Assembly (NCBI GenBank): GCA_947561715.1
Contig: OX387198.1
Coordinates: 19,781,645-19,845,644, forward strand
Reading direction: 5' to 3'
DNA from: Ascidia mentula
Lineage: Eukaryota; Chordata; Ascidiacea; Phlebobranchia; Ascidiidae
DNA: 64,000 nucleotides
Made by a program: the position numbers and the translations under genes. This document shows positions 454 to 62,079 of this stretch, piece by piece. The notes under the pieces are model-generated. The model ran no database searches. It was given only the letters and a program-made list of their open reading frames with translations, and was not told the DNA's origin. Every line of letters begins with the position of its first letter. Positions within the stretch are counted from its first letter, which is position 1.

Positions 454-571
454 GTCTACGGCCATACCAGGTTGAAAGCACCCGATCTCGTTCGATCTCG
501 GAAGTTAAGCAACCTCGGGCTTGGTTAGTACTTGGATGGGTGACCGCCTAGGAATACCAAGTGTTGTAGTC
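454..571 (+). rRNA. 5S rRNA copy with the conserved GAAG A-box form
   Basis: This copy reads CTCGGAAGTTAAGC, matching the conserved animal 5S A box, whereas most of the array has GCAG. The same type recurs near 2,848, 7,451, 9,845, 12,058, 26,499 and 28,526. These are reasonable candidates for the most conserved copies, but expression cannot be read from the sequence. Confidence 0.9.
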
Positions 572-3500
572 ATTTTTCTGTTTACCCAAAGTTATGCTTT
601 GAATTGCGCATAAATGTCGTCAAAACAGTCTAACAAACGTCTACGGCCATACCAGGTTGAAAGCACCCGATCTCGTTTGATCTCGGCAGTTAAGCAAACT
701 CGGGCTTGGTTAGTACTTGGATGGGTGTCCTCTTAGGTTACCAAGTGTTGTAGTCATTTTTCTATTTACCCAAAGTATGCTTTGAATTGCCCATATATGT
801 CGTCAAAACAGACTAACAAACGTCTACGGCCATACCAGGTTGAAAGCACCCGATCTCGTTCGATATCGGCAGTTAAGCAACCTCGGGCTTGGTTAGTACT
901 TGGATGGGTGACCGCCTAGGAATACCAAGTGTTGTAGACAATTTTCTATTTACACAAAGTATGCTTTGAATTGCGCATAAAGATCGTCATAACAGACCAA
1001 CAATCGTCTACGGCCATACCAGGTTGAAAGCACCCGATCTCGTTCGATCTCGGATGTTTAACAACCTCGGGCTTGGTTAGTACTTGGATGGGTGACCTCC
1101 TAGGAATACCAAGTGTTGTAGTCATTTTTCTGTTTACCCAAAGTATGCTTTGAATTGCGCATAAATGTCGTCAAAACAGACTAACAAACGTCTAAGGCCA
1201 TACCAGGTTGAAAGCACCCGATCTCGTTCGATCTCGGCAGTTAAGCAACCTCGGGCTTGGTTAGTACTTGGATGGGTGACCGCCTAGGAATACCAAGTGT
1301 TGTAGTCATTTTGCTATTTGCACAAAGTATGCTTTGAATTGCTCATAAATGTCGTCAAAACAGACTAACAAACGTCTACGGCCATACCAGGTTGAAAGCA
1401 CCCGATCTCGTTCGATCTCGGCAGTTAAGCAACCTCGGGCTTGGTTAGTACTTGGATGGGTGACCGCCTAGGAATACCAAGTGTTGTAGTCAGTTTGCTA
1501 TTTGCACAAAGTATGCTTTGAATTGCTCATAAATGTCGTCAAAACAGACTAAGAAACGTCTACGGCCATACCAGGTTGAAAGCACCCGATCTCGTTCGAT
1601 CTCGGCAGTTAAGCAACCTCGGGCTTGGTTAGTACTTGGATGGGTGACCACCTAGGAATACCAAGTGTTGTAGTCATTTTACTATTTGCACAAAGTATGC
1701 TTTGAATTGCCCATAAATGTCGTTAAAACAGACTAACAAACGTCTACGGCCATACCAGGTTGAAAGCACCCTATCTCGTTCGATCTCGGCAGTTAAGCAA
1801 CCTCGGGCTTGGTTAGTGCTTGGATGGGTGACCGCCTAGGAATACCAAGTGTTGTAGTCATTTTACTATTTGCACAAAGTATGCTTTGAATTGCCCATAA
1901 ATGTCGTCAAAACAGACTAACAAACGTCTACGGCCATACCAGGTTGAAAGCACCCGATCTCGTTCGATCTCGGCAGTTAAGCAACCTCGGGCTTGGTTAG
2001 TACTTGGATGGGTGACCGCCTAGGAATACCAAGTGTTGTAGTCATTATTTTCTATTTGCACAAAGTATGCTTTGAATTGCTCATAAATGTCGTCAAAACA
2101 GACTAACAAACGTCTACGGCCATACCAGGTTGAAAGCACCCGATCTCGTTCGATCTCGGCAGTTAAGCAACCTCGGGCTTGGTTAGTACTTGGATGGGTG
2201 ACCGCCTAGGAATACCAAGTGTTGTAGTCATTTTACTATTTGCACAAAGTATGCTTTGAATTTCACATAAATGTCGTCAAAACAGACTAACAAACGTCTA
2301 CGGTCATACCAGGTTGAAAGCACCCGATCTCGTTCGATCTCGGCAGTTAAGCAACCTCGGGCTTGGTTAGTACTTGGATGGGTGACCGCCTAGGAATACC
2401 AAGTGTTGTAGTCATTTTGCTATTTGCACAAAGTATGCTTTGAATTGCCCATAAATGTCGTCAAAACAGACTAACAAACGTCTACGGCCATACCAGGTTG
2501 AACGCACCCGATCTCGTTCGATCTCGGCAGTTAAGCAACCTCGGGCTTGGTTAGTACTTGGATGGGTGAACGCCTAGGAATACCAAGTGTTGTAGTCATT
2601 TTGCTATTTGCACAAAGTATGCTTTGAATTGCTCATAAATGTCGTCAAAACAGACTAACAAACGTCTACGGCCATACCAGGTTGAAAGCACCCGATCTCG
2701 TTCGATCTCGGCAGTTAAGCAACCTCGGGCTTGGTTAGTACTTGGATGGGTGACCGCCTAGGAATACCAAGTGTTGTAGTCATTTTACTATTTGCACAAA
2801 GTATGCTTTGAATTGCCCATGAATGTCGTCAAAACAGACTAACAAACGTCTACGGCCATACCAGGTTGAAAGCACCCGATCTCGTTCGATCTCGGAAGTT
2901 AAGCAACCTCGGGCTTGGTTAGTACTTGGATGGGTGACCGCCTAGGAATACCAAGTGTTGTAGTCATTTTTCTGTTTACCCAAAGTTATGCTTTGAATTG
3001 CGCATAAATGTCGTCAAAACAGTCTAACAAACGTCTACGGCCATACCAGGTTGAAAGCACCCGATCTCGTTTGATCTCGGCAGTTAAGCAAACTCGGGCT
3101 TGGTTAGTACTTGGATGGGTGTCCTCTTAGGTTACCAAGTGTTGTAGTCATTTTTCTATTTACCCAAAGTATGCTTTGAATTGCCCATATATGTCGTCAA
3201 AACAGACTAACAAACGTCTACGGCCATACCAGGTTGAAAGCACCCGATCTCGTTCGATATCGGCAGTTAAGCAACCTCTGGCTTGGTTAGTACTTGGATG
3301 GGTGACCGCCTAGGAATACCAAGTGTTGTAGACAATTTTCTATTTACACAAAGTATGCTTTGAATTGCGCATAAAGATCGTCATAACAGACTAACAATCG
3401 TCTACGGCCATACCAGGTTGAAAGCACCCGATCTCGTTCGATCTCGGATGTTTAGCAACCTCGGGCTTGGTTAGTACTTGGATGGGTGACCTCCTAGGAA

Positions 3501-14173: not shown

Positions 14174-16530
14174 ATTTTTCTATTTACACAAAGTATGCTT
14201 TGAATTACGCATAAAGATCGTCAAAACAGACTAACAATCGTCTACGGCCATACCAGGTTGAAAGCACCCGATCTCGTTCGATCTCGGCAGTTAAGCAACC
14301 TCGGGCTTGCTTAGTACTTGGATGGGTGACCGCCTAGGAATACCAAGTGTTGTAGTCATTTTTCTTTTTACACAAAGTATGCTTTGAATTGCGCATAAAG
14401 ATCGTCAAAACAGACTTACAAACGTCTACGGGCGTACCACGTTGGAAGCACCCGATCTCGTTCGATCTCGGCAGTTAAGCAACCTCGGGCTTGGTTAGTA
14501 CTTGGATGGGTGATTGCCTAGGAATACCAAGTGTTGTAGTCATTTTACTGTTTGCACAAAGTATGCTTTGAGTTGCCTGTAAATGTCGTCTAAACAGACT
14601 AACAAACGTCTACGGCCATACCAGGTTGAAAGCACCCGATCTCGTTCGATTTCGGCAGTTAAACAACATCAGGCTTGGATGGGTGACCGCCTAGGAATAC
14701 CAAGTGTTGTAGTCATTTTACTATTTGCACAAAGTATGCTTTGAATTGCCCATAAATGTCGTCAAAACAGACTAACAAACGTCTACGGCCATATCAGGTT
14801 GAAAGCACCCGATCTCGTTCGATCTCGGCAGTTAAGCAACCTCGGGCTTGGTTAGCACTTGGATGGATGACCGCCTAGGAATACCAAGTGTTGTAGTCAT
14901 TTTTCTATTTAAACAAAGTATGCATTGAATTGCGCATAAAGATCGTCATAACAGACTAAAAAACGTCTAAGGCCATACCAGGTTGAAAGCACCGTTCTCG
15001 TTCGAACTCGGCAGTTAAGCAACCTCGGGCTTGGTTAGTATTTGTTTGGGTGATCGCCAAGGAATACCAGGTGTTGTGGTCATTTTTCTATTTACACAAA
15101 GTATGCTTTGAATTACGCATAAAGATCGTCAAAACAGACTAACAAACGTCTACGGCCATACCAGGTTGAAAGCACCCGATCTCGTTCGATCTCGGCAGTT
15201 AAGCAAACTCGGGCTTGCTTAGTACTTGGATGGGTGACCGCCTAGGAATACCAAGTGTTGTAGTCATTTTTTTATTTACACAAAGTATGCTTTGAATTGC
15301 GCATAAAGATCGTCAAAACAGACTTACAAACGTCTACGGCCGTACCACGTTGGAAGCACCCGATCTCGTTCGATCTCGGCAGTTAAGCAACCTCGGGCTT
15401 GGTTAGTACTTGGATGGGTGATTGCCTAGGAATACCAAGTGTTGTAGTCATTTTTCTATTTGCACAAAGTATGCTTTGAATTGCTCATAAATGTCGTCAA
15501 AACAGACTAACAAACGTCTACGGCCATTCCAGTTTGAAAGCACCCGATCTCGTTCGATCTCGGCAGTTAAGCAACCTCAGGCTTGGATGGGTGACCGCCT
15601 AGGAATACCAAGTGTTGTAGTCATTTTACTGTTTGCACAAAGTATGCATTGAATTGCGAATATAGATCGTCATAACAGACTAACAAACGTCTAAGGCTAT
15701 ACCAGGTTAAAAGCACCGATTTCGTTCGATCTCGGCAGTTAAACAACCTCGGGCTTGGTAAGTATTTGGTTGGGTGATTGCCTAGGAATACCAAGTGTTG
15801 TAGTCATTTTACTGTTTGCACAAAGTATGCTTTGAATTGCCTGTAAATGTCGTCAAAACAGACTAACAAACGTCTACGGCCATACCAGGTTGAAAGCACC
15901 CGATCTCGTTCGATTTCGGCAGTTAAACAACCTCAGGCTTGGATGGGTGACCGCCTAGGAATACCAAGTGTTGTAATCATTTTACTGTTTGCACAAAGTA
16001 TGCTTTGAGTTGCCTGTAAATGTCGTCTAAACAGACTAACAAACGTCTACGGCCATACCAGGTTGAAAGCACCCGATCTCGTTCGATTTCGGCAGTTAAA
16101 CAACCTCAGGCTTGGATGGGTGACCGCCTAGGAATACCAAGTGTTGTAGTCATTTTACTATTTGCACAAAGTATGCTTTGAATTGCCCATAAATGTCGTC
16201 AAAACAGACTAACAAACGTCTACGGCCATATCAGGTTGAAAGCACCCGATCTCGTTCGATCTCGGCAGTTAAGCAACCTCGGGCTTGGTTAGTACTTGGA
16301 TGGATGACCGCCTAGGAATACCAAGCGTTGTAGTCATTTTTCTATTTAAACAAAGTATGCATTGAATTGCGCATAAAGATCGTCATAACAGACTAAAAAA
16401 CGTCTAAGGCCATACCAGGTTGAAAGCACCGTTCTCGTTCGAACTCGGCAGTTAAGCAACCTCGGGCTTGGTTAGTATTTGTTTGGGTGATCGCCAAGGA
16501 ATACCAGGTGTTGTAGTCATTTTTCTATTT

Positions 16531-16542
16531 ACACAAAGTATG
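16531..16542 (+). repeat. Target-site duplication, left copy
   Basis: ACACAAAGTATG in the 5S spacer directly precedes the retroelement cluster and is repeated at 25,709-25,720 just after it. The last three bases (ATG) could also belong to the element, so the duplication is 9-12 bp. Uninterrupted versions of the same spacer stand at about 33,000, 36,242 and 39,484 and confirm the boundaries. Confidence 0.93.
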
Positions 16543-16680
16543 TGATTAGTAAATCAAATCTGGATCCAAAAAAAAAACCAAAGGCCCCTGGCAGGCTGTC
16601 GATCGCACACCGTATCAATAATAATAATGTATTAAAATCCAAACACAGCGATCTTCAAACAGCTCAGATCGATTTATTTA

Positions 16681-16722
16681 GAGAAAAATATATTTCGCCT
16701 AAAACGGCATCATCAGTTTCTC
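16681..16722 (-). ncRNA. Hammerhead-ribozyme-like motif, PLE copy 1
   Basis: Minus-strand copy of the motif described at 22,107-22,148: GAGAAA, CTGATGA, a GCC/GGC hairpin, GAAA, then TTTCTC. It is identical to the other two intact copies. Confidence 0.65.
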
Positions 16723-17182
16723 CATTTACCAAAACTGCCAAAAAGGAAAAACAGAAAGAAAAAAGTCAAGAATCTAACGCAAAAAGGTTACGCAAGCTAA
16801 AAATAAATAAAAATTAATAAAAACTATAAAAATATTCAGGTTTCAAGCATTAACTAAAAAATAATAAAAGTATGAATTAACTGCATGTGGTCAGACCTGT
16901 CTGTACTACTTTGCTTTCAAAAAACCACTGGCGCTGACACCGAGTGAGCACACAAACATACAGAAGCAACTGAATGTAAAAACAGAACAAAAGTGGAAGG
17001 GGAATGGACGTCACGAACTGCAGACAGGTAGGCCTGTGGGCGAACAGGTGTGACCGATAAGACTCGGTGAATGATAAGACGATAAAAACAGGTTAACAAC
17101 ACAGGAAAAGTCATCAACCCGTTACAGCGAAAACAAGCGCAAACAAAAACATAGTCCTACGGGCGGGGAATAGCAAAACAAA

Positions 17183-19519
17183 CTATTTGCATGATGGTGT
17201 TACCATGGTTTGCACATTTATTTGTGCCCGTATTCTGTGCAACCATAAGTCCTCATATAGATCCAAACTCCCTGCAGGTGGTTTTTGCACGAACGTCACG
17301 TCATAGCAACTTGGCAATATGGGTCTTTGCTGGAATGTCTCGCTATGCTTCTTCAGGTAGTGGTTACCCAGCGCCGTAGCATCGCTATCTAGCGAGCACT
17401 CGAAGTGGTACCAAGTAGACCTGTGAGCATTCCAGCGAGTGGAGAACTTGTTTTTCGTCTGCCCAACATACTGGGCTCCGCAGGTTTTGCACGAGGCCAC
17501 ATATATCCCATAGTCGCGACATGTTAGTCGCTGACGCAACATTATTCTGCCTTTGGGGGTACACAGGAAGGTAGTTGTGGGCACCATGGGCTCGTGGTTA
17601 CCATGGTGCCCGCACAGCGCACAGTGGCCGCAAGGGGCCGATTGGCCAGTGTCCCGAGGCTCGGTGTGATGGGCAAGCTGCTTGTAGTGGCATAGTTTGT
17701 TAAACATCGTTGGTCCTCTCCGATAAACGATGGAAGCATTTGCCTGGAGGCTCAATTCCTTGGGCGAAAGACGCAGTATATGAGGGAATGCTGTTGCCCA
17801 GATAAGTTTGTGCAGGCTTGGAAGCGAGTCTACCGACTTGTTGTGGAAGAATCTAGACTTCCAAGCGCTGGCTGTTGCTAACACATCGCATGTCATCCTC
17901 ACCGGGAAATTGGATTTCACAGCTTTATCTTTGAGCCACAATAGGGCCTTTTTGTAGTCGCTTTCATTCTCGTTTAAGCGCCGCATCCGTATGGCTTCGG
18001 AAAACACAATTGATTTAAACACATGGATTGGGTGGTGGGAACGCCCATTAAGAAAACAACGGTCAAGTGCTGTGGGCTTAGTGTGATTGGTGGTTTTGAA
18101 GCCCGCCAGTGACATGGGGTCGATAATGTGGCACACATCAAGAAATTCAACTCCAGTGCATGGCTTTGCCGTTGTGGCTTGGCGGAAAGTTAGTTCCAAG
18201 CCTGCGTTACGAAAGCATTCCACCAACTTCTGTTGTATGACATTGGTTGTTTTAACCCCAAGCGACACCCATATAATGTCATCAATGAACCTCTTAAATA
18301 TGTACGCCTTGTTTATTGCTGTGGCAGCTTTGCAAACAATGAAGTGAACAGCAATGTTAGCCACCGATACTGAGTTATTGTCACCTGTGACAATGCCTTC
18401 TTTTTGGCAATAAAAAGAATCTGCATTCCTCAATATGGCGTTGTCAATGCAAAACATTGTCAATTCGATGATGGTGTTTCTTGCCTGCGCGGTGAATGTT
18501 GAGTGACCATTCAAAGCCGCCTTCAAAGCCTGGCGTATGATGGATCTGGGAAGGTTGGGATATAATGATTTTACATCTCCTGCCACAATGCATAGTTCCT
18601 GGCGCCGCATTTTCTTGGAGAGGTGTTGCGCATTTTCCATTTTCCACTTGTGGAGTTCTTCTAAATAATCTTTACTGTCCCGGCAATATTCATTTACGTT
18701 TGCCTTGCAGTAGAGTACACTGATCGGCTGCAAAATGCTTTCCAGGAAAATCGTAGTTCGGGACGTCGTGGTGTTTCCAGATGCTTGCACCAGTCTCACT
18801 GGCATCTCTCCAATACTGCAATGCAGCAGCTCTTCAGGTGCGAGCTTGTGGGTTTTGAACAACGGATACGCATATCCGGGTTCGTTGCACGCAAAGAATT
18901 TTGCTGTAGGACCAGAGATATGTCGATAGGTGCAGCCATGGAGTTTGATGCCAGCCGTGTTATATAGGATGGTATCGCTTACGACTCCAAACTTGTGCAG
19001 CTTAATGAGCTTATCATCACAGGTGTCTTTAATCTTTTGCATCTCCGAACCTACTGTGGAACGCGTCAAGGGTAATTGGTGATACGCGGAGAATTGTTTT
19101 AACATTGTGGTGTTGTAGTCTTGTAAGTTCAGAATGATGATTTTCCCATCCTTGTCCGCCCTGCATATTACTATTTGTTTCTCCCTGGTCAATTTCGTTA
19201 ATCTGTGCAAACTCTCTCTGAGATTTGAAGTCAGATTATTCCGATTAACGAATAGGCGTCTGGCGGATGTCTCCATATTCCTGACTTTGGCAAAAACCAT
19301 TTCTGTGTAGGCTAGAACTTCTGCGCTTAGTTCACTTTTGTTAGGCCTGTTAAGCTTCGGTATTTTAAGCTTTTCAGGGATCGGCTCTTTGATCTCGTCT
19401 TCTTCACCATAGAGACTCTGCCATTCTACACGGCGAACATGTCTAATGGCGTTAACCCATTCTGAATGTTGTGTTGTTTCATTCCACTGCGGCGTTGGCA
19501 CAAAATTCAGGCCATACAT
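17183..19519 (-). CDS. PLE reverse transcriptase/GIY-YIG ORF, N-terminally truncated copy
   Basis: Open frame of 778 codons from an internal Met. It equals residues 166-943 of the full 943-aa protein at 22,315-25,146, including the whole RT core (SLYPN, FIDD) and the GIY-YIG domain. The leader and the first 150 or so residues are missing because the copy is 5'-truncated, so it has no known start signal or leader of its own. It probably does not act by itself, although the catalytic domains are complete. Confidence 0.9.
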   Translation of the reverse strand: MYGLNFVPTPQWNETTQHSEWVNAIRHVRRVEWQSLYGEEDEIKEPIPEKLKIPKLNRPNKSELSAEVLAYTEMVFAKVRNMETSARRLFVNRNNLTSNLRESLHRLTKLTREKQIVICRADKDGKIIILNLQDYNTTMLKQFSAYHQLPLTRSTVGSEMQKIKDTCDDKLIKLHKFGVVSDTILYNTAGIKLHGCTYRHISGPTAKFFACNEPGYAYPLFKTHKLAPEELLHCSIGEMPVRLVQASGNTTTSRTTIFLESILQPISVLYCKANVNEYCRDSKDYLEELHKWKMENAQHLSKKMRRQELCIVAGDVKSLYPNLPRSIIRQALKAALNGHSTFTAQARNTIIELTMFCIDNAILRNADSFYCQKEGIVTGDNNSVSVANIAVHFIVCKAATAINKAYIFKRFIDDIIWVSLGVKTTNVIQQKLVECFRNAGLELTFRQATTAKPCTGVEFLDVCHIIDPMSLAGFKTTNHTKPTALDRCFLNGRSHHPIHVFKSIVFSEAIRMRRLNENESDYKKALLWLKDKAVKSNFPVRMTCDVLATASAWKSRFFHNKSVDSLPSLHKLIWATAFPHILRLSPKELSLQANASIVYRRGPTMFNKLCHYKQLAHHTEPRDTGQSAPCGHCALCGHHGNHEPMVPTTTFLCTPKGRIMLRQRLTCRDYGIYVASCKTCGAQYVGQTKNKFSTRWNAHRSTWYHFECSLDSDATALGNHYLKKHSETFQQRPILPSCYDVTFVQKPPAGSLDLYEDLWLHRIRAQINVQTMVTPSCK

Positions 19520-19618
19520 TAAGAGAATTTTATCGTCTGAATTGAGAACGTAGTCTGATTTTCCGCCAGACGCCTATTCGTTAATCGGAATAATCTGACT
19601 TCAAATCTCAGAGAGAGT

Positions 19619-21646
19619 TTGCACAGATTAACGAAATTGACCAGGGAGAAACAAATAGTAATATGCAGGGCGGACAAGGATGGGAAAATCATCATTCTGA
19701 ACTTACAAGACTACAACACCACAATGTTAAAACAATTCTCCGCGTATCACCAATTACCCTTGACGCGTTCCACAGTAGGTTCGGAGATGCAAAAGATTAA
19801 AGACACCTGTGATGATAAGCTCATTAAGCTGCACAAGTTTGGAGTCGTAAGCGATACCATCCTATATAACACGGCTGGCATCAAACTCCATGGCTGCACC
19901 TATCGACATATCTCTGGTCCTACAGCAAAATTCTTTGCGTGCAACGAACCCGGATATGCGTATCCGTTGTTCAAAACCCACAAGCTCGCACCTGAAGAGC
20001 TGCTGCATTGCAGTATTGGAGAGATGCCAGTGAGACTGGTGCAAGCATCTGGAAACACCACGACGTCCCGAACTACGATTTTCCTGGAAAGCATTTTGCA
20101 GCCGATCAGTGTACTCTACTGCAAGGCAAACGTAAATGAATATTGCCGGGACAGTAAAGATTATTTAGAAGAACTCCACAAGTGGAAAATGGAAAATGCG
20201 CAACACCTCTCCAAGAAAATGCGGCGCCAGGAACTATGCATTGTGGCAGGAGATGTAAAATCATTATATCCCAACCTTCCCAGATCCATCATACGCCAGG
20301 CTTTGAAGGCGGCTTTGAATGGTCACTCAACATTCACCGCGCAGGCAAGAAACACCATCATCGAATTGACAATGTTTTGCATTGACAACGCCATATTGAG
20401 GAATGCAGATTCTTTTTATTGCCAAAAAGAAGGCATTGTCACAGGTGACAATAACTCAGTATCGGTGGCTAACATTGCTGTTCACTTCATTGTTTGCAAA
20501 GCTGCCACAGCAATAAACAAGGCGTACATATTTAAGAGGTTCATTGATGACATTATATGGGTGTCGCTTGGGGTTAAAACAACCAATGTCATACAACAGA
20601 AGTTGGTGGAATGCTTTCGTAACGCAGGCTTGGAACTAACTTTCCGCCAAGCCACAACGGCAAAGCCATGCACTGGAGTTGAATTTCTTGATGTGTGCCA
20701 CATTATCGACCCCATGTCACTGGCGGGCTTCAAAACCACCAATCACACTAAGCCCACAGCACTTGACCGTTGTTTTCTTAATGGGCGTTCCCACCACCCA
20801 ATCCATGTGTTTAAATCAATTGTGTTTTCCGAAGCCATACGGATGCGGCGCTTAAACGAGAATGAAAGCGACTACAAAAAGGCCCTATTGTGGCTCAAAG
20901 ATAAAGCTGTGAAATCCAATTTCCCGGTGAGGATGACATGCGATGTGTTAGCAACAGCCAGCGCTTGGAAGTCTAGATTCTTCCACAACAAGTCGGTAGA
21001 CTCGCTTCCAAGCCTGCACAAACTTATCTGGGCAACAGCATTCCCTCATATACTGCGTCTTTCGCCCAAGGAATTGAGCCTCCAGGCAAATGCTTCCATC
21101 GTTTATCGGAGAGGACCAACGATGTTTAACAAACTATGCCACTACAAGCAGCTTGCCCATCACACCGAGCCTCGGGACACTGGCCAATCGGCCCCTTGCG
21201 GCCACTGTGCGCTGTGCGGGCACCATGGTAACCACGAGCCCATGGTGCCCACAACTACCTTCCTGTGTACCCCCAAAGGCAGAATAATGTTGCGTCAGCG
21301 ACTAACATGTCGCGACTATGGGATATATGTGGCCTCGTGCAAAACCTGCGGAGCCCAGTATGTTGGGCAGACGAAAAACAAGTTCTCCACTCGCTGGAAT
21401 GCTCACAGGTCTACTTGGTACCACTTCGAGTGCTCGCTAGATAGCGATGCTACGGCGCTGGGTAACCACTACCTGAAGAAGCATAGCGAGACATTCCAGC
21501 AAAGACCCATATTGCCAAGTTGCTATGACGTGACGTTCGTGCAAAAACCACCTGCAGGGAGTTTGGATCTATATGAGGACTTATGGTTGCACAGAATACG
21601 GGCACAAATAAATGTGCAAACCATGGTAACACCATCATGCAAATAG
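19619..21646 (+). CDS. PLE reverse transcriptase/GIY-YIG ORF, truncated copy 2
   Basis: Open to the stop at 21,646. From about residue 250 of the full protein onward it is identical to copies 1 and 3. The first Met-like codon of the open stretch is a TTG within the RT finger region, not a natural start. The RT palm and endonuclease domains are both complete. It is a truncated insertion product and unlikely to be translated from its own leader. Confidence 0.85.
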   Translation: MHRLTKLTREKQIVICRADKDGKIIILNLQDYNTTMLKQFSAYHQLPLTRSTVGSEMQKIKDTCDDKLIKLHKFGVVSDTILYNTAGIKLHGCTYRHISGPTAKFFACNEPGYAYPLFKTHKLAPEELLHCSIGEMPVRLVQASGNTTTSRTTIFLESILQPISVLYCKANVNEYCRDSKDYLEELHKWKMENAQHLSKKMRRQELCIVAGDVKSLYPNLPRSIIRQALKAALNGHSTFTAQARNTIIELTMFCIDNAILRNADSFYCQKEGIVTGDNNSVSVANIAVHFIVCKAATAINKAYIFKRFIDDIIWVSLGVKTTNVIQQKLVECFRNAGLELTFRQATTAKPCTGVEFLDVCHIIDPMSLAGFKTTNHTKPTALDRCFLNGRSHHPIHVFKSIVFSEAIRMRRLNENESDYKKALLWLKDKAVKSNFPVRMTCDVLATASAWKSRFFHNKSVDSLPSLHKLIWATAFPHILRLSPKELSLQANASIVYRRGPTMFNKLCHYKQLAHHTEPRDTGQSAPCGHCALCGHHGNHEPMVPTTTFLCTPKGRIMLRQRLTCRDYGIYVASCKTCGAQYVGQTKNKFSTRWNAHRSTWYHFECSLDSDATALGNHYLKKHSETFQQRPILPSCYDVTFVQKPPAGSLDLYEDLWLHRIRAQINVQTMVTPSCK

Positions 21647-22106
21647 TTTGTTTTGCTATTCCCCGCCCGTAGGACTATGTTTTTGTTTGCGCTTGTTTTC
21701 GCTGTAACGGGTTGATGACTTTTCCTGTGTTGTTAACCTGTTTTTATCGTCTTATCATTCACCGAGTCTTATCGGTCACACCTGTTCGCCCACAGGCCTA
21801 CCTGTCTGCAGTTCGTGACGTCCATTCCCCTTCCACTTTTGTTCTGTTTTTACATTCAGTTGCTTCTGTATGTTTGTGTGCTCACTCGGTGTCAGCGCCA
21901 GTGGTTTTTTGAAAGCAAAGTAGTACAGACAGGTCTGACCACATGCAGTTAATTCATACTTTTATTATTTTTTAGTTAATGCTTGAAACCTGAATATTTT
22001 TATAGTTTTTATTAATTTTTATTTATTTTTAGCTTGCGTAACCTTTTTGCGTTAGATTCTTGACTTTTTTCTTTCTGTTTTTCCTTTTTGGCAGTTTTGG
22101 TAAATG

Positions 22107-22148
22107 GAGAAACTGATGATGCCGTTTTAGGCGAAATATATTTTTCTC
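22107..22148 (+). ncRNA. Hammerhead-ribozyme-like motif, junction of PLE copies 2 and 3
   Basis: The order is GAGAAA (22,107-22,112), CTGATGA (22,113-22,119), hairpin GCC-loop-GGC, GAAA (22,133-22,136), a very short self-complementary ATATAT, then TTTCTC (22,143-22,148), which pairs with GAGAAA as stem I. Hammerhead motifs with tiny stem III are known from Penelope-like elements, where the palindromic stem III is thought to form between two RNAs. One extra U follows CTGATGA compared with the textbook core, so cleavage is likely but not certain. A relic at 45,723-45,764 keeps stem I through a paired change. Confidence 0.68.
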
Positions 22149-22314
22149 TAAATAAATCGATCTGAGCTGTTTGAAGATCGCTGTGTTTGGATTTTAATAC
22201 ATTATTATTATTGATACGGTGTGCGATCGACAGCCTGCCAGGGGCCTTTGGTTTTTTTTTTTGGATCCAGATTTGATTTACTAATCACATTGGAAAGATA
22301 CGGCCTGGATCACC

Positions 22315-25146
22315 ATGGACCCGGCAATTGAAAACTACCAAAAAGATGTGTACATGGAAGCCAAGGTTAAGTTTTTAAGGCGAAGCTTGCGATGCCATCT
22401 GCTGCTTCCCTCTAACTACCGCAAAGGCATTGATTTGGACCTACTTTTGATCCAACAATCACGCAAGATTAACAAACAGTTATGTCTGCATAATAAACGG
22501 TGTAACAATCTACTTCACAATTGGTTGGCATTACCTGAAGCCTCTCGATGTTATCTACTTAAATACAAACGAATGGTTACGTCCAAATTCATTGAACGAT
22601 ACAATTGGCTTGCGGCAAAACAAGTAACGAGGTATAGCACCGCACCCAGAAGTACTTTGAAGCCTTCGACATCGAGGAACAGGAAAAGCAAAATGCGGTA
22701 CAATTTGCGAACACAAAAACGTTTGGACGAACAACTTTTGGATCGAGCGGAACACATGATATTAAATAAATCAGACTACGTTCTCAATTCAGACGATAAA
22801 ATTCTCTTAATGTATGGCCTGAATTTTGTGCCAACGCCGCAGTGGAATGAAACAACACAACATTCAGAATGGGTTAACGCCATTAGACATGTTCGCCGTG
22901 TAGAATGGCAGAGTCTCTATGGTGAAGAAGACGAGATCAAAGAGCCGATCCCTGAAAAGCTTAAAATACCGAAGCTTAACAGGCCTAACAAAAGTGAACT
23001 AAGCGCAGAAGTTCTAGCCTACACAGAAATGGTTTTTGCCAAAGTCAGGAATATGGAGACATCCGCCAGACGCCTATTCGTTAATCGGAATAATCTGACT
23101 TCAAATCTCAGAGAGAGTTTGCACAGATTAACGAAATTGACCAGGGAGAAACAAATAGTAATATGCAGGGCGGACAAGGATGGGAAAATCATCATTCTGA
23201 ACTTACAAGACTACAACACCACAATGTTAAAACAATTCTCCGCGTATCACCAATTACCCTTGACGCGTTCCACAGTAGGTTCGGAGATGCAAAAGATTAA
23301 AGACACCTGTGATGATAAGCTCATTAAGCTGCACAAGTTTGGAGTCGTAAGCGATACCATCCTATATAACACGGCTGGCATCAAACTCCATGGCTGCACC
23401 TATCGACATATCTCTGGTCCTACAGCAAAATTCTTTGCGTGCAACGAACCCGGATATGCGTATCCGTTGTTCAAAACCCACAAGCTCGCACCTGAAGAGC
23501 TGCTGCATTGCAGTATTGGAGAGATGCCAGTGAGACTGGTGCAAGCATCTGGAAACACCACGACGTCCCGAACTACGATTTTCCTGGAAAGCATTTTGCA
23601 GCCGATCAGTGTACTCTACTGCAAGGCAAACGTAAATGAATATTGCCGGGACAGTAAAGATTATTTAGAAGAACTCCACAAGTGGAAAATGGAAAATGCG
23701 CAACACCTCTCCAAGAAAATGCGGCGCCAGGAACTATGCATTGTGGCAGGAGATGTAAAATCATTATATCCCAACCTTCCCAGATCCATCATACGCCAGG
23801 CTTTGAAGGCGGCTTTGAATGGTCACTCAACATTCACCGCGCAGGCAAGAAACACCATCATCGAATTGACAATGTTTTGCATTGACAACGCCATATTGAG
23901 GAATGCAGATTCTTTTTATTGCCAAAAAGAAGGCATTGTCACAGGTGACAATAACTCAGTATCGGTGGCTAACATTGCTGTTCACTTCATTGTTTGCAAA
24001 GCTGCCACAGCAATAAACAAGGCGTACATATTTAAGAGGTTCATTGATGACATTATATGGGTGTCGCTTGGGGTTAAAACAACCAATGTCATACAACAGA
24101 AGTTGGTGGAATGCTTTCGTAACGCAGGCTTGGAACTAACTTTCCGCCAAGCCACAACGGCAAAGCCATGCACTGGAGTTGAATTTCTTGATGTGTGCCA
24201 CATTATCGACCCCATGTCACTGGCGGGCTTCAAAACCACCAATCACACTAAGCCCACAGCACTTGACCGTTGTTTTCTTAATGGGCGTTCCCACCACCCA
24301 ATCCATGTGTTTAAATCAATTGTGTTTTCCGAAGCCATACGGATGCGGCGCTTAAACGAGAATGAAAGCGACTACAAAAAGGCCCTATTGTGGCTCAAAG
24401 ATAAAGCTGTGAAATCCAATTTCCCGGTGAGGATGACATGCGATGTGTTAGCAACAGCCAGCGCTTGGAAGTCTAGATTCTTCCACAACAAGTCGGTAGA
24501 CTCGCTTCCAAGCCTGCACAAACTTATCTGGGCAACAGCATTCCCTCATATACTGCGTCTTTCGCCCAAGGAATTGAGCCTCCAGGCAAATGCTTCCATC
24601 GTTTATCGGAGAGGACCAACGATGTTTAACAAACTATGCCACTACAAGCAGCTTGCCCATCACACCGAGCCTCGGGACACTGGCCAATCGGCCCCTTGCG
24701 GCCACTGTGCGCTGTGCGGGCACCATGGTAACCACGAGCCCATGGTGCCCACAACTACCTTCCTGTGTACCCCCAAAGGCAGAATAATGTTGCGTCAGCG
24801 ACTAACATGTCGCGACTATGGGATATATGTGGCCTCGTGCAAAACCTGCGGAGCCCAGTATGTTGGGCAGACGAAAAACAAGTTCTCCACTCGCTGGAAT
24901 GCTCACAGGTCTACTTGGTACCACTTCGAGTGCTCGCTAGATAGCGATGCTACGGCGCTGGGTAACCACTACCTGAAGAAGCATAGCGAGACATTCCAGC
25001 AAAGACCCATATTGCCAAGTTGCTATGACGTGACGTTCGTGCAAAAACCACCTGCAGGGAGTTTGGATCTATATGAGGACTTATGGTTGCACAGAATACG
25101 GGCACAAATAAATGTGCAAACCATGGTAACACCATCATGCAAATAG
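22315..25146 (+). CDS. Penelope-like reverse transcriptase with GIY-YIG endonuclease, intact
   Basis: 943 aa starting at ATG in a good context (ATCACCATGG). The N-terminal 250 residues are basic with no recognised domain. The RT core follows: YPLFKTHK at 383-390 (typical of this family), motif A with GDVKSLYPN at 479-487 (Asp480), motif B with EGIVTGDNNS at 539-548, and motif C RFIDDIIW at 575-582 (Asp578, Asp579). After a linker there is a Cys cluster (C795, C798, C801). The GIY-YIG nuclease comes last, with GIY at 836-838, YVGQT at 849-853, Arg860, His864, and Glu921 in LYEDLW. RT linked to a C-terminal GIY-YIG domain is the hallmark of endonuclease-bearing PLEs, which nick DNA and copy their RNA into it. 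No break is seen, so the element could be active. The exact clade (Penelope/Poseidon or Neptune-like) is not settled. Confidence 0.95.
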   Translation: MDPAIENYQKDVYMEAKVKFLRRSLRCHLLLPSNYRKGIDLDLLLIQQSRKINKQLCLHNKRCNNLLHNWLALPEASRCYLLKYKRMVTSKFIERYNWLAAKQVTRYSTAPRSTLKPSTSRNRKSKMRYNLRTQKRLDEQLLDRAEHMILNKSDYVLNSDDKILLMYGLNFVPTPQWNETTQHSEWVNAIRHVRRVEWQSLYGEEDEIKEPIPEKLKIPKLNRPNKSELSAEVLAYTEMVFAKVRNMETSARRLFVNRNNLTSNLRESLHRLTKLTREKQIVICRADKDGKIIILNLQDYNTTMLKQFSAYHQLPLTRSTVGSEMQKIKDTCDDKLIKLHKFGVVSDTILYNTAGIKLHGCTYRHISGPTAKFFACNEPGYAYPLFKTHKLAPEELLHCSIGEMPVRLVQASGNTTTSRTTIFLESILQPISVLYCKANVNEYCRDSKDYLEELHKWKMENAQHLSKKMRRQELCIVAGDVKSLYPNLPRSIIRQALKAALNGHSTFTAQARNTIIELTMFCIDNAILRNADSFYCQKEGIVTGDNNSVSVANIAVHFIVCKAATAINKAYIFKRFIDDIIWVSLGVKTTNVIQQKLVECFRNAGLELTFRQATTAKPCTGVEFLDVCHIIDPMSLAGFKTTNHTKPTALDRCFLNGRSHHPIHVFKSIVFSEAIRMRRLNENESDYKKALLWLKDKAVKSNFPVRMTCDVLATASAWKSRFFHNKSVDSLPSLHKLIWATAFPHILRLSPKELSLQANASIVYRRGPTMFNKLCHYKQLAHHTEPRDTGQSAPCGHCALCGHHGNHEPMVPTTTFLCTPKGRIMLRQRLTCRDYGIYVASCKTCGAQYVGQTKNKFSTRWNAHRSTWYHFECSLDSDATALGNHYLKKHSETFQQRPILPSCYDVTFVQKPPAGSLDLYEDLWLHRIRAQINVQTMVTPSCK

Positions 25147-25606
25147 TTTGTTTTGCTATTCCCCGCCCGTAGGACTATGTTTTTGTTTGCGCTTGTTTTC
25201 GCTGTAACGGGTTGATGACTTTTCCTGTGTTGTTAACCTGTTTTTATCGTCTTATCATTCACCGAGTCTTATCGGTCACACCTGTTCGCCCACAGGCCTA
25301 CCTGTCTGCAGTTCGTGACGTCCATTCCCCTTCCACTTTTGTTCTGTTTTTACATTCAGTTGCTTCTGTATGTTTGTGTGCTCACTCGGTGTCAGCGCCA
25401 GTGGTTTTTTGAAAGCAAAGTAGTACAGACAGGTCTGACCACATGCAGTTAATTCATACTTTTATTATTTTTTAGTTAATGCTTGAAACCTGAATATTTT
25501 TATAGTTTTTATTAATTTTTATTTATTTTTAGCTTGCGTAACCTTTTTGCGTTAGATTCTTGACTTTTTTCTTTCTGTTTTTCCTTTTTGGCAGTTTTGG
25601 TAAATG

Positions 25607-25648
25607 GAGAAACTGATGATGCCGTTTTAGGCGAAATATATTTTTCTC
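25607..25648 (+). ncRNA. Hammerhead-ribozyme-like motif, 3' region of PLE copy 3
   Basis: Same sequence as at 22,107-22,148, exactly 3,500 bp downstream and about 60 bp before the element's 3' end. Two such motifs flank the full ORF, so self-cleavage would release a unit-length RNA. Confidence 0.66.
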
Positions 25649-25708
25649 TAAATAAATCGATCTGAGCTGTTTGAAGATCGCTGTGTTTGGATTTTAATAC
25701 ATTATTAT

Positions 25709-25720
25709 ACACAAAGTATG
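25709..25720 (+). repeat. Target-site duplication, right copy
   Basis: ACACAAAGTATG directly after the element end, continuing into the normal 5S spacer (CTTTGAATTACGC). It pairs with 16,531-16,542. Confidence 0.93.
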
Positions 25721-28700
25721 CTTTGAATTACGCATAAAGATCGTCAAAACAGACTAACAAACGTCTACGGCCATACCAGGTTGAAAGCACCCGATCTCGT
25801 TCGATCTCGGCAGTTAAGCAACCTCGGGCTTGCTTAGTACTTGGATGGGTGACCGCCTAGGAATACCAAGTGTTGTAGTCATTTTTTTATTTACACGAAG
25901 TATGCTTTGAATTGCGCATAAAGATCGTCAAAACAGACTTACTAACGTCTACGGCCGTACCACGTTGGAAGCACCCGATCTCGTTCGATCTCGGCAGTTA
26001 AGCAACCTCGTGCTTGGTTAGTACTTGGATGGGTGATTGCCTAGGAATACCAAGTGTTGTAGTCATTTTGCTATTTGCACAAAGTATGCTTTGAATTGCC
26101 CATAAATGTCGTCAAAACAGACTAACAAACGTCTACGGCCATACCAGGTTGAAAGCACCCGATCTCGTTCGATCTCGGCAGTTAAGCAACCTCGGGCTTG
26201 GTTAGTACTTGGATGGGTGACCGCCTAGGAATACCAAGTGTTGTAGTCATTTTGCTATTTGCACAAAGTATGCTTTGAATTGCTCATAAATGTCGTCAAA
26301 ACAGACTAACAAACGTCTACGGCCATACCAGGTTGAAAGCACCCGATCTCGTTCGATCTCGGCAGTTAAGCAACCTCGGGCTTGGTTAGTACTTGGATGG
26401 GTGACCGCCTAGGAATACCAAGTGTTGTAGTCATTTTACTATTTGCACAAAGTATGCTTTGAATTGCCCATGAATGTCGTCAAAACAGACTAACAAACGT
26501 CTACGGCCATACCAGGTTGAAAGCACCCGATCTCGTTCGATCTCGGAAGTTAAGCAACCTCGGGCTTGGTTAGTACTTGGATGGGTGACCGCCTAGGAAT
26601 ACCAAGTGTTGTAGTCATTTTTCTGTTTACCCAAAGTTATGCTTTGAATTGCGCATAAATGTCGTCAAAACAGTCTAACAAACGTCTACGGCCATACCAG
26701 GTTGAAAGCACCCGATCTCGTTTGATCTCGGCAGTTAAGCAAACTCGGGCTTGGTTAGTACTTGGATGGGTGTCCTCTTAGGTTACCAAGTGTTGTAGTC
26801 ATTTTTCTATTTACCCAAAGTATGCTTTGAATTGCCCATATATGTCGTCAAAACTGACTAACAAACGTCTACGGCCATACCAGGTTGAAAGCACCCGATC
26901 TCGTTCGATATCGGCAGTTAAGCAACCTCTGGCTTGGTTAGTACTTGGATGGGTGACCGCCTAGGAATACCAAGTGTTGTAGACAATTTTCTATTTACAC
27001 AAAGTATGCTTTGAATTGCGCATAAAGATCGTCATAACAGACTAACAATCGTCTACGGCCATACCAGGTTGAAAGCACCCGATCTCGTTCGATCTCGGAT
27101 GTTTAGCAACCTCGGGCTTGGTTAGTACTTGGATGGGTGACCTCCTAGGAATACCAAGTGTTGTAGTCATTTTTCTGTTTACCCAAAGTATGCTTTGAAT
27201 TGCGCATAAATGTCGTCAAAACAGACTAACAAACGTCTAAGGCCATACCAGGTTGAAAGCACCCGATCTCGTTCGATCTCGGCAGTTAAGCAACCTCGGG
27301 CTTGGTTAGTACTTGGATGGGTGACCGCCTAGGAATACCAAGTGTTGTAGTCATTTTGCTATTTGCACAAAGTATGCTTTGAATTGCTCATAAATGTCGT
27401 CAAAACAGACTAACAAACGTCTACGGCCATACCAGGTTGAAAGCACCCGATCTCGTTCGATCTCGGCAGTTAAGCAACCTCGGGCTTGGTTAGTACTTGG
27501 ATGGGTGACCGCCTAGGAATACCAAGTGTTGTAGTCATTTTGCTATTTGCACAAAGTATGCTTTGAATTGCTCATAAATGTCGTAAAAACAGACTAACAA
27601 ACGTCTACGGCCATACCAGGTTGAAAGCACCCTATCTCGTTCGATCTCGGCAGTTAAGCAACCTCGGGTTTGGTTAGTGCTTGGATGGGTGACCGCCTAG
27701 GAATACCAAGTGTTGTAGTCATTTTACTATTTGCACAAAGTATGCTTTGAATTGCCCATAAATGTCGTCAAAACAGACTAACAAACGTCTACGGCCATAC
27801 CAGGTTGAAAGCACCCGATCTCGTTCGATCTCGGCAGTTAAGCAACCTCGGGCTTGGTTAGTACTTGGATGGGTGACCGCCTAGGAATACCAAGTGTTGT
27901 AGTCATTATTTTCTATTTGCACAAAGTATGCTTTGAATTGCTCATAAATGTCGTCAAAACAGACTAACAAACATCTACGGCCATACCAGGTTGAAAGCAC
28001 CCGATCTCGTTCGATCTCGGCAGTTAAGCAACCTCGGGCTTGGTTAGTACTTGGATGGGTGACCGCCTAGGAATACCAAGTGTTGTAGTCATTTTACTAT
28101 TTGCACAAAGTATGCTTTGAATTTCACATAAATGTCGTCAAAACAGACTAACAAACGTCTACGGTCATACCAGGTTGAAAGCACCCGATCTCGTTCGATC
28201 TCGGCAGTTAAGCAACCTCGGGCTTGGTTAGTACTTGGATGGGTGACCGCCTAGGAATACCAAGTGTTGTAGTCATTTTGCTATTTGCACAAAGTATGCT
28301 TTGAATTGCTCATAAATATCGTCAAAACAGACTAACAAACGTCTACGGCCATACCAGGTTGAAAGCACCCGATCTCGTTCGATCTCGGCAGTTAAGCAAC
28401 CTCGGGCTTGGTTAGTACTTGGATGGGTGACCGCCTAGGAATACCAAGTGTTGTAGTCATTTTTCTATTTATACAAAGTATGCTTTGAATTGCGCATGAA
28501 GATCGTCATAACCGACTAACAAACGTCTACGGCCATACCAGGTTGAAAGCACCCGATCTCGTTCGATCTCGGAAGTTAAGCAACCTCGGGCTTGGTTAGT
28601 ACTTGGATGGGTGACCGCCTAGGAATACCAAGTGTTGTAGTCATTTTTCTGTTTACCCAAAGTTATGCTTTGAATTGCGCATGAATGTCGTCAAAACAGT

Positions 28701-31700: not shown

Positions 31701-33054
31701 TGGGTGACCGCCTAGGAATACCAAGTGTTGTAGTCATTTTTTTATTTACACAAAGTATGCTTTGAATTGCGCATAAAGATCGTCAAAACAGACTTACAAA
31801 CGTCTACGGCCGTACCAAGTTGGAAGCACCCGATCTCGTTCGATCTCGGCAGTTAAGCAACCTCGGGCTTGGTTAGTACTTGGATGGGTGATTGCCTAGG
31901 AATACCAAGTGTTGTAGTCATTTTTCTATTTGCACAAAGTATGCTTTGAATTGCTCATAAATGTCGTCAAAACAGACTAACAAACGTCTACGGCCATTCC
32001 AGTTTGAAAGCACCCGATCTCGTTCGATCTCGGCAGTTAAGCAACCTCAGGCTTGGATGGGTGACCGCCTAGGAATACCAAGTGTTGTAGTCATTTTACT
32101 GTTTGCACAAAGTATGCATTGAATTGCGAATATAGATCGTCATAACAGACTAACAAACGTCTAAGGCTATACCAGGTTAAAAGCACCGATTTCGTTCGAT
32201 CTCGGCAGTTAAACAACCTCGGGCTTGGTTAGTATTTGGTTGGGTGATTGCCTAGGAATACCAAGTGTTGTAGTCATTTTACTGTTTGCACAAAGTATGC
32301 TTTGAATTGCCTGTAAATGTCGTCAAAACAGACTAACAAACGTCTACGGCCATACCAGGTTGAAAGCACCCGATCTCGTTCGATTTCGGCAGTTAAACAA
32401 CCTCAGGCTTGGATGGGTGACCGCCTAGGAATACCAAGTGTTGTAGTCATTTTACTGTTTGCACAAAGTATGCTTTGAGTTGCCTGTAAATGTCGTCTAA
32501 ACAGACTAACAAACGTCTACGGCCATACCAGGTTGAAAGCACCCGATCTCGTTCGATTTCGGCAGTTAAACAACCTCAGGCTTGGATGGGTGACCGCCTA
32601 GGAATACCAAGTGTTGTAGTCATTTTACTATTTGCACAAAGTATGCTTTGAATTGCCCATAAATGTCGTCAAAACAGACTAACAAACGTCTACGGCCATA
32701 TCAGGTTGAAAGCACCCGATCTCGTTCGATCTCGGCAGTTAAGCAACCTCGGGCTTGGTTAGTACTTGGATGGATGACCGCCTAGGAATACCAAGTGTTG
32801 TAGTCATTTTTCTATTTAAACAAAGTATGCATTGAATTGCGCATAAAGATCGTCATAACAGACTAAAAAACGTCTAAGGCCATACCAGGTTGAAAGCACC
32901 GTTCTCGTTCGAACTCGGCAGTTAAGCAACCTCGGGCTTGGTTAGTATTTGTTTGGGTGATCGCCAAGGAATACCAGGTGTTGTAGTCATTTTTCTATTT
33001 ACACAAAGTATGCTTTGAATTACGCATAAAGATCGTCAAAACAGACTAACAAAC
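25721..33054 (+). rRNA. 5S rRNA tandem array, right part, block shared with the left array
   Basis: Forty 5S copies, from 25,763 to the copy at 32,872. The first 22 steps (25,763 to 29,813) average 184 bp. The following block (29,813-32,872) matches the left block at 13,343-16,402 at a constant offset of 16,470 bp. Copies at 30,537, 31,078, 31,986, 32,342 and 32,515 have the 11-nt deletion, and 30,180 the 10-nt one. The first two units resemble those at 33,055 and 33,239 (CTTGCTTAG, then ACTTACTAACG with CTCGTGCTTGG), which shows that the order block-then-these-two-units occurs twice. Confidence 0.95.
25763..25880 (+). rRNA. 5S rRNA, first copy after the retroelement
   Basis: Complete 118-nt copy reading CTTGCTTAG in the middle. 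Its -30 element (variant CATAAAG) is kept, but the sequence upstream of about -54 is now the retroelement. If upstream spacer sequence matters for expression, this copy would be affected. Confidence 0.92.
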
Positions 33055-36000
33055 GTCTACGGCCATACCAGGTTGAAAGCACCCGATCTCGTTCGATCTC
33101 GGCAGTTAAGCAACCTCGGGCTTGCTTAGTACTTGGATGGGTGACCGCCTAGGAATACCAAGTGTTGTAGTCATTTTTTTATTTACACAAAGTATGCTTT
33201 GAATTGCGCATAAAGATCGTCAAAACAGACTTACTAACGTCTACGGCCGTACCACGTTGGAAGCACCCGATCTCGTTCGATCTCGGCAGTTAAGCAACCT
33301 CGTGCTTGGTTAGTACTTGGATGGGTGATTGCCTAGGAATACCAAGTGTTGTAGTCATTTTTCTATTTGCACAAAGTATGCTTTGAATTGCTCATAAATG
33401 TCGTCAAAACAGACTAACAAACGTCTACGGCCATTCCAGTTTGAAAGCACCCGATCTCGTTCGATCTCGGCAGTTAAGCAACCTCAGGCTTGGATGGGTG
33501 ACCGCCTAGGAATACCAAGTGTTGTAGTCATTTTACTGTTTGCACAAAGTATGCATTGAATTGCGAATATAGATCGTCATAACAGACTAACAAACGTCTA
33601 AGGCTATACCAGGTTAAAAGCACCAATTTCGTTCGATCTCGGCAGTTAAACAACCTCGGGCTTGGTTAGTATTTGGTTGGGTGATTGCCTAGGAATACCA
33701 AGTGTTGTAGTCATTTTACTGTTTGCACAAAGTATGCTTTGAATTGCCTGTAAATGTCGTCAAAACAGACTAACAAACGTCTACGGCCATACCAGGTTGA
33801 AAGCACCCGATCTCCTTCGATCTCGGCAGTTAAGCAACCTTGGGCTTGGTTAGTATTTGTTTGGGTGATCGCCAAGGAATACCAGGTGTTGTAGTCATTT
33901 TTCTATTTACACAAAGTATGCTTTGAATTACGCATAAAGATCGTCAAAACAGACTAACAAACGTCTACGGCCATACCAGGTTGAAAGCACCCGATCTCGT
34001 TCGATCTCGGCAGTTAAGCAACCTCGGGCTTGCTTAGTACTTGGATGGGTGACCGCCTAGGAATACCAAGTGTTGTAGTCATTTTTCTATTTACACAAAG
34101 TATGCTTTGAATTGCGCATAAAGATCGTCAAAACAGACTTACAAACGTCTACGGCCGTACCACGTTGGAAGCACCCGATCTCGTTCGATCTCGGCAGTTA
34201 AGCAACCTCGGGCTTGGTTAGTACTTGGATGGGTGATTGCCTAGGAATACCAAGTGTTGTAGTCATTTTTCTATTTGCACAAAGTATGCTTTGAATTGCT
34301 CATAAATGTCGTCAAAACAGACTAACAAACGTCTACGGCCATTCCAGTTTGAAAGCACCCGATCTCGTTCGATCTCGGCAGTTAAGCAACCTCAGGCTTG
34401 GATGGGTGACCGCCTAGGAATACCAAGTGTTGTAGTCATTTTACTGTTTGCACAAAGTATGCTTTGAATTGCCTGTAAATGTCGTCAAAACAGACTAACA
34501 AACGTCTACGGCCATACCAGGTTGAAAGCACCCGATCTCCTTCGATCTCGGCAGTTAAGCAACCTTGGGCTTGGTTAGTAATTGGATGAGTGACCTCCTA
34601 GGAATACCAAGTGTTGTAGTCATTTTTCTATTTAAACAAAGTATGCATTGAATTGCGAATAAAGATCGTCATAACAGACTAACAAACGTCTAAGGCTATA
34701 CCAGGTTAAAAGCACCGATCTCGTTCGATCTCGGCAGTTAAGCAACCTCAGGCTTGGATGGGTTACCGCCTAGGAATACCAAGTGTTGTAGTCATTTTAC
34801 TGTTTGCACAAAGTATGCATTGAATTGCGCATAAAGATCGTCATAACAGACTAACAAACGTCTAAGTCTATACCAGGTTAAAAGCACCGATCTCGTTCGA
34901 TCTCGGCAGTTAAACAACATCGGGCTTGGTTAGTATTTGGTTGGGTGATTGCCTAGGAATACCAAGTGTTGTAGTCATTTTACTGTTTGCACAAAGTAAG
35001 CTTTGAATTGCCTGTAAATGTCGTCAAAACAGACTAACAAACGTCTACGGCCATACCAGGTTGAAAGCACCCGATCTCGTTCGATCTCGGCAGTTAAGCA
35101 ACCTCGGGCTTGCTTAGTACTTGGATGGGTGACCGCCTAGGAATACCAAGTGTTGTAGTCATTTTTCTATTTACACAAAGTATGCTTTGAATTGCGCATA
35201 AAGATCGTCAAAACAGACTTACAAACGTCTACGGCCGTACCACGTTGGAAGCACCCGATCTCGTTCGATCTCGGCAGTTAAGCAACCTCGGGCTTGGTTA
35301 GTACTTGGATGGGTGATTGCCTAGGAATACCAAGTGTTGTAGTCATTTTTCTATTTGCACAAAGTATGCTTTGAATTGCTCATAAATGTCGTCAAAACAG
35401 ACTAACAAACGTCTACGGCCATTCCAGTTTGAAAGCACCCGATCTCGTTCGATCTCGGCAGTTAAGCAACCTCAGGCTTGGATGGGTGACCGCCTAGGAA
35501 TACCACGTGTTGTAGTCATTTTACTGTTTGCACAAAGTATGCTTTGAATTGCCTGTAAATGTCGTCAAAACAGACTAACAAACGTCTACGGCCATACCAG
35601 GTTGAAAGCACCCGATCTCGTTCGATTTCGGCAGTTAAACAACCTCAGGCTTGGATGGGTGACCGCCTAGGAATACCAAGTGTTGTAGTCATTTTACTGT
35701 TTGCACAAAGTATGCTTTGAGTTGCCTGTAAATGTCGTCTAAACAGACTAACAAACGTCTACGGCCATACCAGGTTGAAAGCACCCGATCTCGTTCGATT
35801 TCGGCAGTTAAACAACACCAGGCTTGGATGGGTGACCGCCTAGGAATACCAAGTGTTGTAGTCATTTTACTATTTGCACAAAGTATGCTTTGAATTGCCC
35901 ATAAATGTCGTCAAAACAGACTAACAAACGTCTACGGCCATATCAGGTTGAAAGCACCCGATCTCGTTCGATCTCGGCAGTTAAGCAACCTCGGGCTTGG

Positions 36001-36296
36001 TTAGTACTTGGATGGATGACCGCCTAGGAATACCAAGTGTTGTAGTCATTTTTCTATTTAAACAAAGTATGCATTGAATTGCGCATAAAGATCGTCATAA
36101 CAGACTAAAAAACGTCTAAGGCCATACCAGGTTGAAAGCACCGTTCTCGTTCGAACTCGGCAGTTAAGCAACCTCGGGCTTGGTTAGTATTTGTTTGGGT
36201 GATCGCCAAGGAATACCAGGTGTTGTAGTCATTTTTCTATTTACACAAAGTATGCTTTGAATTACGCATAAAGATCGTCAAAACAGACTAACAAAC
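33055..36296 (+). rRNA. 5S array, 18-unit higher-order repeat, copy A
   Basis: Starts: 33055, 33239, 33423, 33596, 33779, 33963, 34147, 34331, 34504, 34688, 34860, 35043, 35227, 35411, 35584, 35757, 35930, 36114. The block is 3,242 bp and repeats twice more. Six copies have the 11-nt deletion: 33423, 34331, 34688, 35411, 35584 and 35757. Confidence 0.94.
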
Positions 36297-45689: not shown

Positions 45690-46030
45690 TTGCTTTGGTG
45701 GCTTTTATTGAAACTACGCTGACAGAAACTGATGATGCGTATTTAGGCAAAATATATTTTTCTGACATAAAACATCCATAAAGCATCGACATTTCTGGCT
45801 TTACGCATAAACTTAATACCGCACATTTTTTTATCGTTGTTGGTTCAACAAAAATCACCAGATTAAATAATTTCCGCATGACTGCGTCTGACCTGTAGTA
45901 CCCTCTTCAGGCTTGTAGTAGCGCACGAGTGACCTTGCTGTTGTTTAAGAAAGATGCCGGCTTGTGTTGGGGCGAAAATGTACTTTGCTCTATAAATAAA
46001 GCCTTCTTCAGCAGTTGTGATTGAGCGAAG
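45690..46030 (+). mobile_element. Decayed Penelope-like 3' region (two pieces)
   Basis: At 45,723-45,764 the order CAGAAA, CTGATGA, TGC-loop-GGC, AAAATATAT, TTTCTG follows the hammerhead-like motif of the PLE cluster, with G to A in the GAAA box. At about 45,948-46,010 a second stretch (AAGAAAGATGCCGG, GGGGCGAAAATGTA, GCTCTATAAATAAAG) resembles the same motif and its downstream CTCTAAATAAATC, with part of the core missing. Both are on the + strand, about 230 bp apart. They look like an old, unrelated insertion of the same superfamily. No ORF remnant was recognised. Confidence 0.5.
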
Positions 46031-62072: not shown

Positions 62073-62079
62073 CTATTGG

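Follow-up and report, generated by a model that had tools for sequence, protein, structure and literature searches.

A recent Penelope-like element insertion in a 5S rRNA gene spacer of Ascidia mentula and the single tails of its dispersed family

Insertion within the 5S rRNA gene array

The window analyzed, a 64,000 nt stretch of the Ascidia mentula genome (C2:19781645-19845644; the genome comprises 195.8 Mb in 79 contigs), starts within an array of 5S rRNA genes with units of ~184 bp. One spacer of this array is interrupted by an insertion of 9,166 bp (16543-25708), and the 12-bp target site duplication, ACACAAAGTATG, is present on both sides, at 16531-16542 and 25709-25720 on the plus strand, as the initial annotation had reported for a Penelope-like element (PLE) inside a 5S spacer. 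The upstream 5S rRNA gene (16402-16519, plus strand) is diverged, with an Rfam score of 77.3 bits, and the downstream 5S rRNA gene (25763-25881, plus strand) scores 106 bits. Both genes are uncut. The insertion point is 23 bp past the end of the upstream gene at 16519, beyond the T-run, and 54 bp of upstream spacer are retained before the downstream gene, which confirms the location first given, between a 5S T-run and the next gene. As a part of the 5S spacer, the 12-mer ACACAAAGTATG has 36 occurrences in the window, and the duplication is therefore judged by its position beside the element rather than by its rarity. At the right joint 1 nt (T), and at the left joint up to 3 nt (ATG, as the final 3 nt of the left copy also fit the element end), are compatible with both target and element, so that the exact cut points are uncertain by 1 nt and by up to 3 nt, respectively; the single-base precision that had been claimed for both ends does not hold.

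Hits to 5S rRNA in Rfam extend on C2 from 19,402,854 to position 43,623 of the window, a span of ~422 kb that corresponds to 0.22% of the genome; the outer bound was drawn from the best 47 of 6,964 candidates scored, so that the array may differ from this span in extent and may not be continuous. Among the same best 47 candidates there are two lone 5S hits outside C2, one on C1 and one on C70. Within the window the array (1-43698) contains higher-order repeats, with a 3,242-bp period at 33001, 36243 and 39485, and longer blocks offset by about 7.0 and 7.3 kb.

Comparison of flanks identified empty paralogous sites at 33001-33012 (plus strand) and likewise at 36243 and 39485. When the insertion flanks were compared, ungapped and over 368 bp per side, with 38 other spacer sites, each of these three differed at 1 of 368 positions on the left and 2 of 368 on the right. 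Site 31564 had 2 and 5 differences and site 15094 had 3 and 5, and the medians over the 38 sites were 152 and 23.5, values raised by sites with other unit lengths. When joined, the flanks (1.2 kb) are 97.7% identical to 32413-33600, with 17 mismatches and one gap. To the left of 33001 the alignment holds for 3,000 bp with 10 differences, and to the right the ungapped register is lost between 368 and 736 bp. The uninterrupted spacers pointed out initially as an empty-site control are real, with matching flanks at all three positions, and we infer from these alignments that the insertion postdates the higher-order duplication of this part of the array.

Structure of the insertion

The insertion contains three copies of a 3,500-bp unit. 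Copy C (22209-25708, plus strand) is the full unit; copy B (19562-22208, plus strand) is direct, 5′-truncated (unit positions 854-3500) and in partial tandem with copy C; and copy A (16621-19561, minus strand) is inverted and also 5′-truncated (unit positions 560-3500). Neither truncated copy departs from copy C in the aligned part: identity is 100% over 2,941 bp for A and over 2,647 bp for B. The outer end of copy A carries a tail (16543-16620, minus strand), ~80 bp that match the first 82 bp of the unit. The stretch that includes this tail has one gap relative to copy C, and copy A plus tail has its outer start at either 16540 or 16543, given the overlap with the left duplication. The element is assigned below to the PLEs, a class in which a target duplication accompanies partial tandem and inverted copies.

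Tandem 5S repeats and a near-perfect 2.7-kb inverted repeat are both hard to assemble, and the element might have been misplaced in the array, or the three-piece structure generated from a simpler copy. Such an artefact is, however, very improbable, given the clean target duplication, an empty site that matches the flanks on both sides, and the reappearance at unrelated loci of an inverted arm, a direct arm, one tail and a duplication. Slightly less probable again is an origin by several successive, nested insertions, which could account for the presence of three copies but not readily for just one outer duplication, for the complete identity of A, B and C over their aligned parts, or for comparable layouts at other loci. 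From its sequence organization, the insertion is best read as a single event that would have delivered three near-identical PLE pieces, rather than as several insertions. The initial description of a young PLE cluster thus holds for the young PLE; what had been taken for a cluster of several insertions is one insertion with a single outer duplication.

Coding capacity

Copy C has an open frame of 943 aa from the first ATG (22315-25146, plus strand), predicted to encode a reverse transcriptase with a C-terminal GIY-YIG domain. A FIDD motif is apparent by eye in this frame, and the Pfam RVT_1 match has an E value of 1.8e-06 at 28.3 bits, with scores of 28.3 to 29.3 bits overall, just under the cut-off of 29.6. 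With Pfam, GIY-YIG (PF01541) was not listed for the frames of copies A and C at an E value of 0.001; it scored 19.9 bits on copy B and 22.7 bits on a cut-out C-terminal fragment, which passes the cut-off of 22.6 by 0.1, and a YGIY..YVGQT motif is visible by eye in the C-terminal part. Searches against solved protein structures gave no match to the whole frame at an E value of 0.001 and unrelated weak matches alone to the endonuclease part (best E 0.21). In a set of four family copies that span the whole frame, three are without an internal stop or gap and one has a one-base gap and 29 stops. With a single long frame that includes a reverse transcriptase and a C-terminal GIY-YIG domain, the element is, as judged from its predicted protein, an endonuclease-bearing PLE.

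Other features are present in the window outside the insertion. Fragments of a LINE-like reverse transcriptase lie on the minus strand at 61475-62083, with PQGSILGPLLF and FADD recognizable by eye, and exon-like frames on the plus strand at 48380-55236 resemble a spinster-type transporter. There are also small tandem arrays at 53468-53693 (38 bp x 5.9) and 54314-54533 (22 bp x 10).

A hammerhead-like motif near the 3′-end

In its 3′-untranslated part, copy C contains a hammerhead-ribozyme-like motif (25606-25648, plus strand; core CTGATGA at 25613), with the sequence GGAGAAA CTGATGA T GCC GTTTTA GGC GAAA TATATT TTTCTC, and identical sequences are present in copies A and B. By a hand-written descriptor, the motif forms stems I and II plus a tiny stem III. 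This descriptor, devised once the motif was known and permitting the 1-nt bulge that the motif needs, matched none of 2,000 first-order Markov resamples of the unit. An Rfam search of 16525-25740 recognized no ribozyme, and the three RybB matches that it returned (E 0.34) were dismissed as chance. We regard the motif as a likely candidate for a minimal type I hammerhead. Copies with 76-85% identity across the final 140 bp largely retain it. In L065 and in one arm of L036 the core has changed to CTGATAA, and there are other changes in L035 and L046; function is therefore disfavoured in these copies.

At 45724-45763 the window contains a 40-bp sequence that is 90% identical to the motif, in which inspection by eye shows stem I still paired after a C-G swap and the GAAA core altered. 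This is probably the relic of a related element. The short insertions L070 to L076, of ~300 bp, are near-palindromic inverted pseudo-LTR pairs, and 4 of their 14 arms have unit position 3385 as their exact start, immediately ahead of the hammerhead-like motif; this position may mark an RNA 5′-end.

Distribution of the family and the 5S target

At least 100 aligned family pieces, grouped by hand, fall at 39 places on nine contigs, this insertion included; the alignment scored the best 39 of 649 candidates, and full copies may be more numerous. At up to two mismatches the 3′-end pattern has 282 matches in the genome, with 11 for the reversed-pattern control, and the tail pattern has 224, with 27 for its control, numbers that count ends rather than insertions. 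Among the matches listed, six family 3′-ends spaced ~3.49 kb apart, three per orientation, are present at C52:9243190-9260424; they seem to belong to an extended tandem of full units, arranged head to head, with a single exact outer tail. These six ends are absent among the pieces obtained from the best 39 of 649 candidates.

It had been suggested that the spacer would be a safe site if such insertions were repeated, and that many independent joins of the 3′-end at one spacer position would indicate a target preference. The exact 5S joint, ACATTATTATACACAAAGTATG, occurs only once in an exact-match search of the genome, and family members were found outside 5S DNA at unrelated sites, the outcome that the initial annotation had named as refuting it. 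Among the exact 3′-end matches listed for C2, only this insertion is inside the 5S array; the exact matches on C2 are taken as complete, as matches were ordered by contig, exact ones first, and reached past C2. None of the 76 flanks of the 38 other loci resembles the 5S unit (E up to 0.1). The same 76 flanks contain no tRNA genes, and a preference for tRNA genes was rejected on this ground. All 16 other two-ended insertions compared, a set that leaves out the two-ended loci L062 and L065, have unrelated direct repeats of 12-17 bp. Insertion sites tend to be AT-rich: at the 38 loci the GC content is 31.4% within 30 bp versus 37.9% over 800 bp, and in the 5S unit it is 32.3% in the spacer versus 52.1% in the gene.

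By our own arithmetic, the 282 end matches correspond to an estimated ~150 family insertions and, with the array making up 0.22% of the genome, ~0.3 would therefore be expected in the array by chance, against which the single insertion found is unremarkable. Older, diverged family members may be present elsewhere in the array. A 5S-targeting element would be recognized by independent insertions recurring at one fixed 5S position; these were not found, and a 5S target preference was rejected given the single exact joint, the dispersal of the family and the lack of 5S sequence in all 76 flanks. That 5S spacers are nonetheless a preferred, safe site and the copies elsewhere are escapes is the least probable of the alternatives, as the full-length open-frame copy held by the array, identical to its two neighbours, is outweighed by the finding of one insertion in an array whose 5S hits span ~422 kb, by the lack of any other exact joint to this spacer and by the absence of 5S DNA from all 76 flanks. 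The PLE in this spacer looks like one chance landing and represents no new kind of element. No description of a PLE in a 5S spacer was found in the open-licence literature searched, and one may exist in print. As a 5S story the insertion is ordinary, a dispersed element of which one copy landed in an AT-rich spacer with neither gene broken; its value is as a clean, recent example of PLE integration with an empty-site control.

One tail per insertion and a proposed model for integration

Outer ends were evaluated at 46 loci: the 38 others, the insertion in the window and seven short loci. In all 26 insertions with both outer ends readable, 19 from the 38 loci and the window plus the seven short loci, one end is a plain 3′-end and the other, and only that one, carries a tail. 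The remaining 20 loci were dropped for truncation or lack of recognition at one outer end or at both; eight of these (L034, L035 and L038 to L043) have common flanks and are likely segmental duplicates. A stray 51-bp match in L062 and a 28-bp match in L064 were excluded before the ends were classed. By BLAST extent the tail is ~72-88 bp long, and in 4 of the 26 insertions (L050, L057, L059 and L065) the tail end consists of the tail alone. The script identified no clear target duplication in L062 and L065; by eye, ATTGTTGTTACG is present in both flanks of L065, and the direct repeats at the seven short loci were also seen by eye. The short loci were drawn from 11 further inverted groups among the 3′-end matches listed, and the other four groups each have one exact tail at their outer ends, where an inexact second tail would be invisible. 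If each end independently had a tail with a probability of one-half, 26 of 26 would, by our arithmetic, occur by chance with a probability of ~1.5e-8. Tails at one end are already known; what is new is the count without exception, a rule that may hold for this PLE family alone or more widely.

We consider it highly probable (about 0.9) that the locus records one recent insertion by an endonuclease-bearing PLE that is ordinary and dispersed in the genome. In the proposed sequence of events, the element protein would cut both strands of an AT-rich stretch of the 5S spacer, ~12 bp apart, and each cut end would prime reverse transcription of the element RNA. On one strand the start site would be the one that yields ...ATTATTAT; on the other it would lie ~80 nt beyond that point and so generate the tail. 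The two first-strand products would then meet head to head, placing inverted copy A against the tandem of B and C. The AT-richness of the spacer and the size of the array would account for the hit, rather than any targeting of 5S genes by the element. One tail per insertion is what two-strand target priming would produce if the two strands used different starts. A stricter version, which we put forward tentatively and hold to be somewhat doubtful, is that two-strand integration in this family is obligately asymmetric, with one strand always primed at the tail start and the other always ~80 nt upstream, as though each half of a dimer were tied to an initiation site of its own. Through the one-tail regularity, the insertion set of this family can be used to test models of two-strand priming.

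Comparison with known elements

Mutsu is a non-LTR element. In zebrafish it inserts in 5S rRNA genes, and the present insertion is also in 5S DNA, but Mutsu is described as targeting 5S genes, whereas the Ascidia PLE family does not (PMC3706591).

A closer counterpart is PAc, the Poseidon PLE of Anolis carolinensis, which likewise encodes a reverse transcriptase and GIY-YIG in a single frame, forms tandem copies with pseudo-LTRs and has a tail delimited by two reverse transcription start sites, AT-rich targets and a hammerhead motif, the last corresponding here to the putative hammerhead-like sequence (PMC11167929). The two elements differ in the length of the tail, ~72-88 bp in the Ascidia PLE and 30-40 bp in PAc; in the position of its end, which is before the start codon in Ascidia (unit position ~80-92, ATG at 107) and inside the frame in PAc; and in the hammerhead core, 96 bp before the 3′-end of the Ascidia unit and around the start codon in PAc (PMC11167929). 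The purified Anolis protein cleaves AT-rich DNA on both strands and extends both, and the tail is delimited by two internal sites from which reverse transcription starts, with no apparent difference in start site between the strands in pooled reads obtained in vitro; the tail is presented there as an optional extension in a fraction of copies, yet seen in most inserted copies (PMC11167929).

The anatomy of the insertion is also that of Penelope families of Adineta vaga (Pen2a_Av and others), which have an inverted pseudo-LTR with direct copies, partial tandems, a tail on one inverted end and target duplications, there of 8-10 bp (PMC3846280). The A. vaga tail, of 31 bp, is described as optional (PMC3846280), whereas in the Ascidia family a tail is present at exactly one end in every two-ended insertion of the 26.
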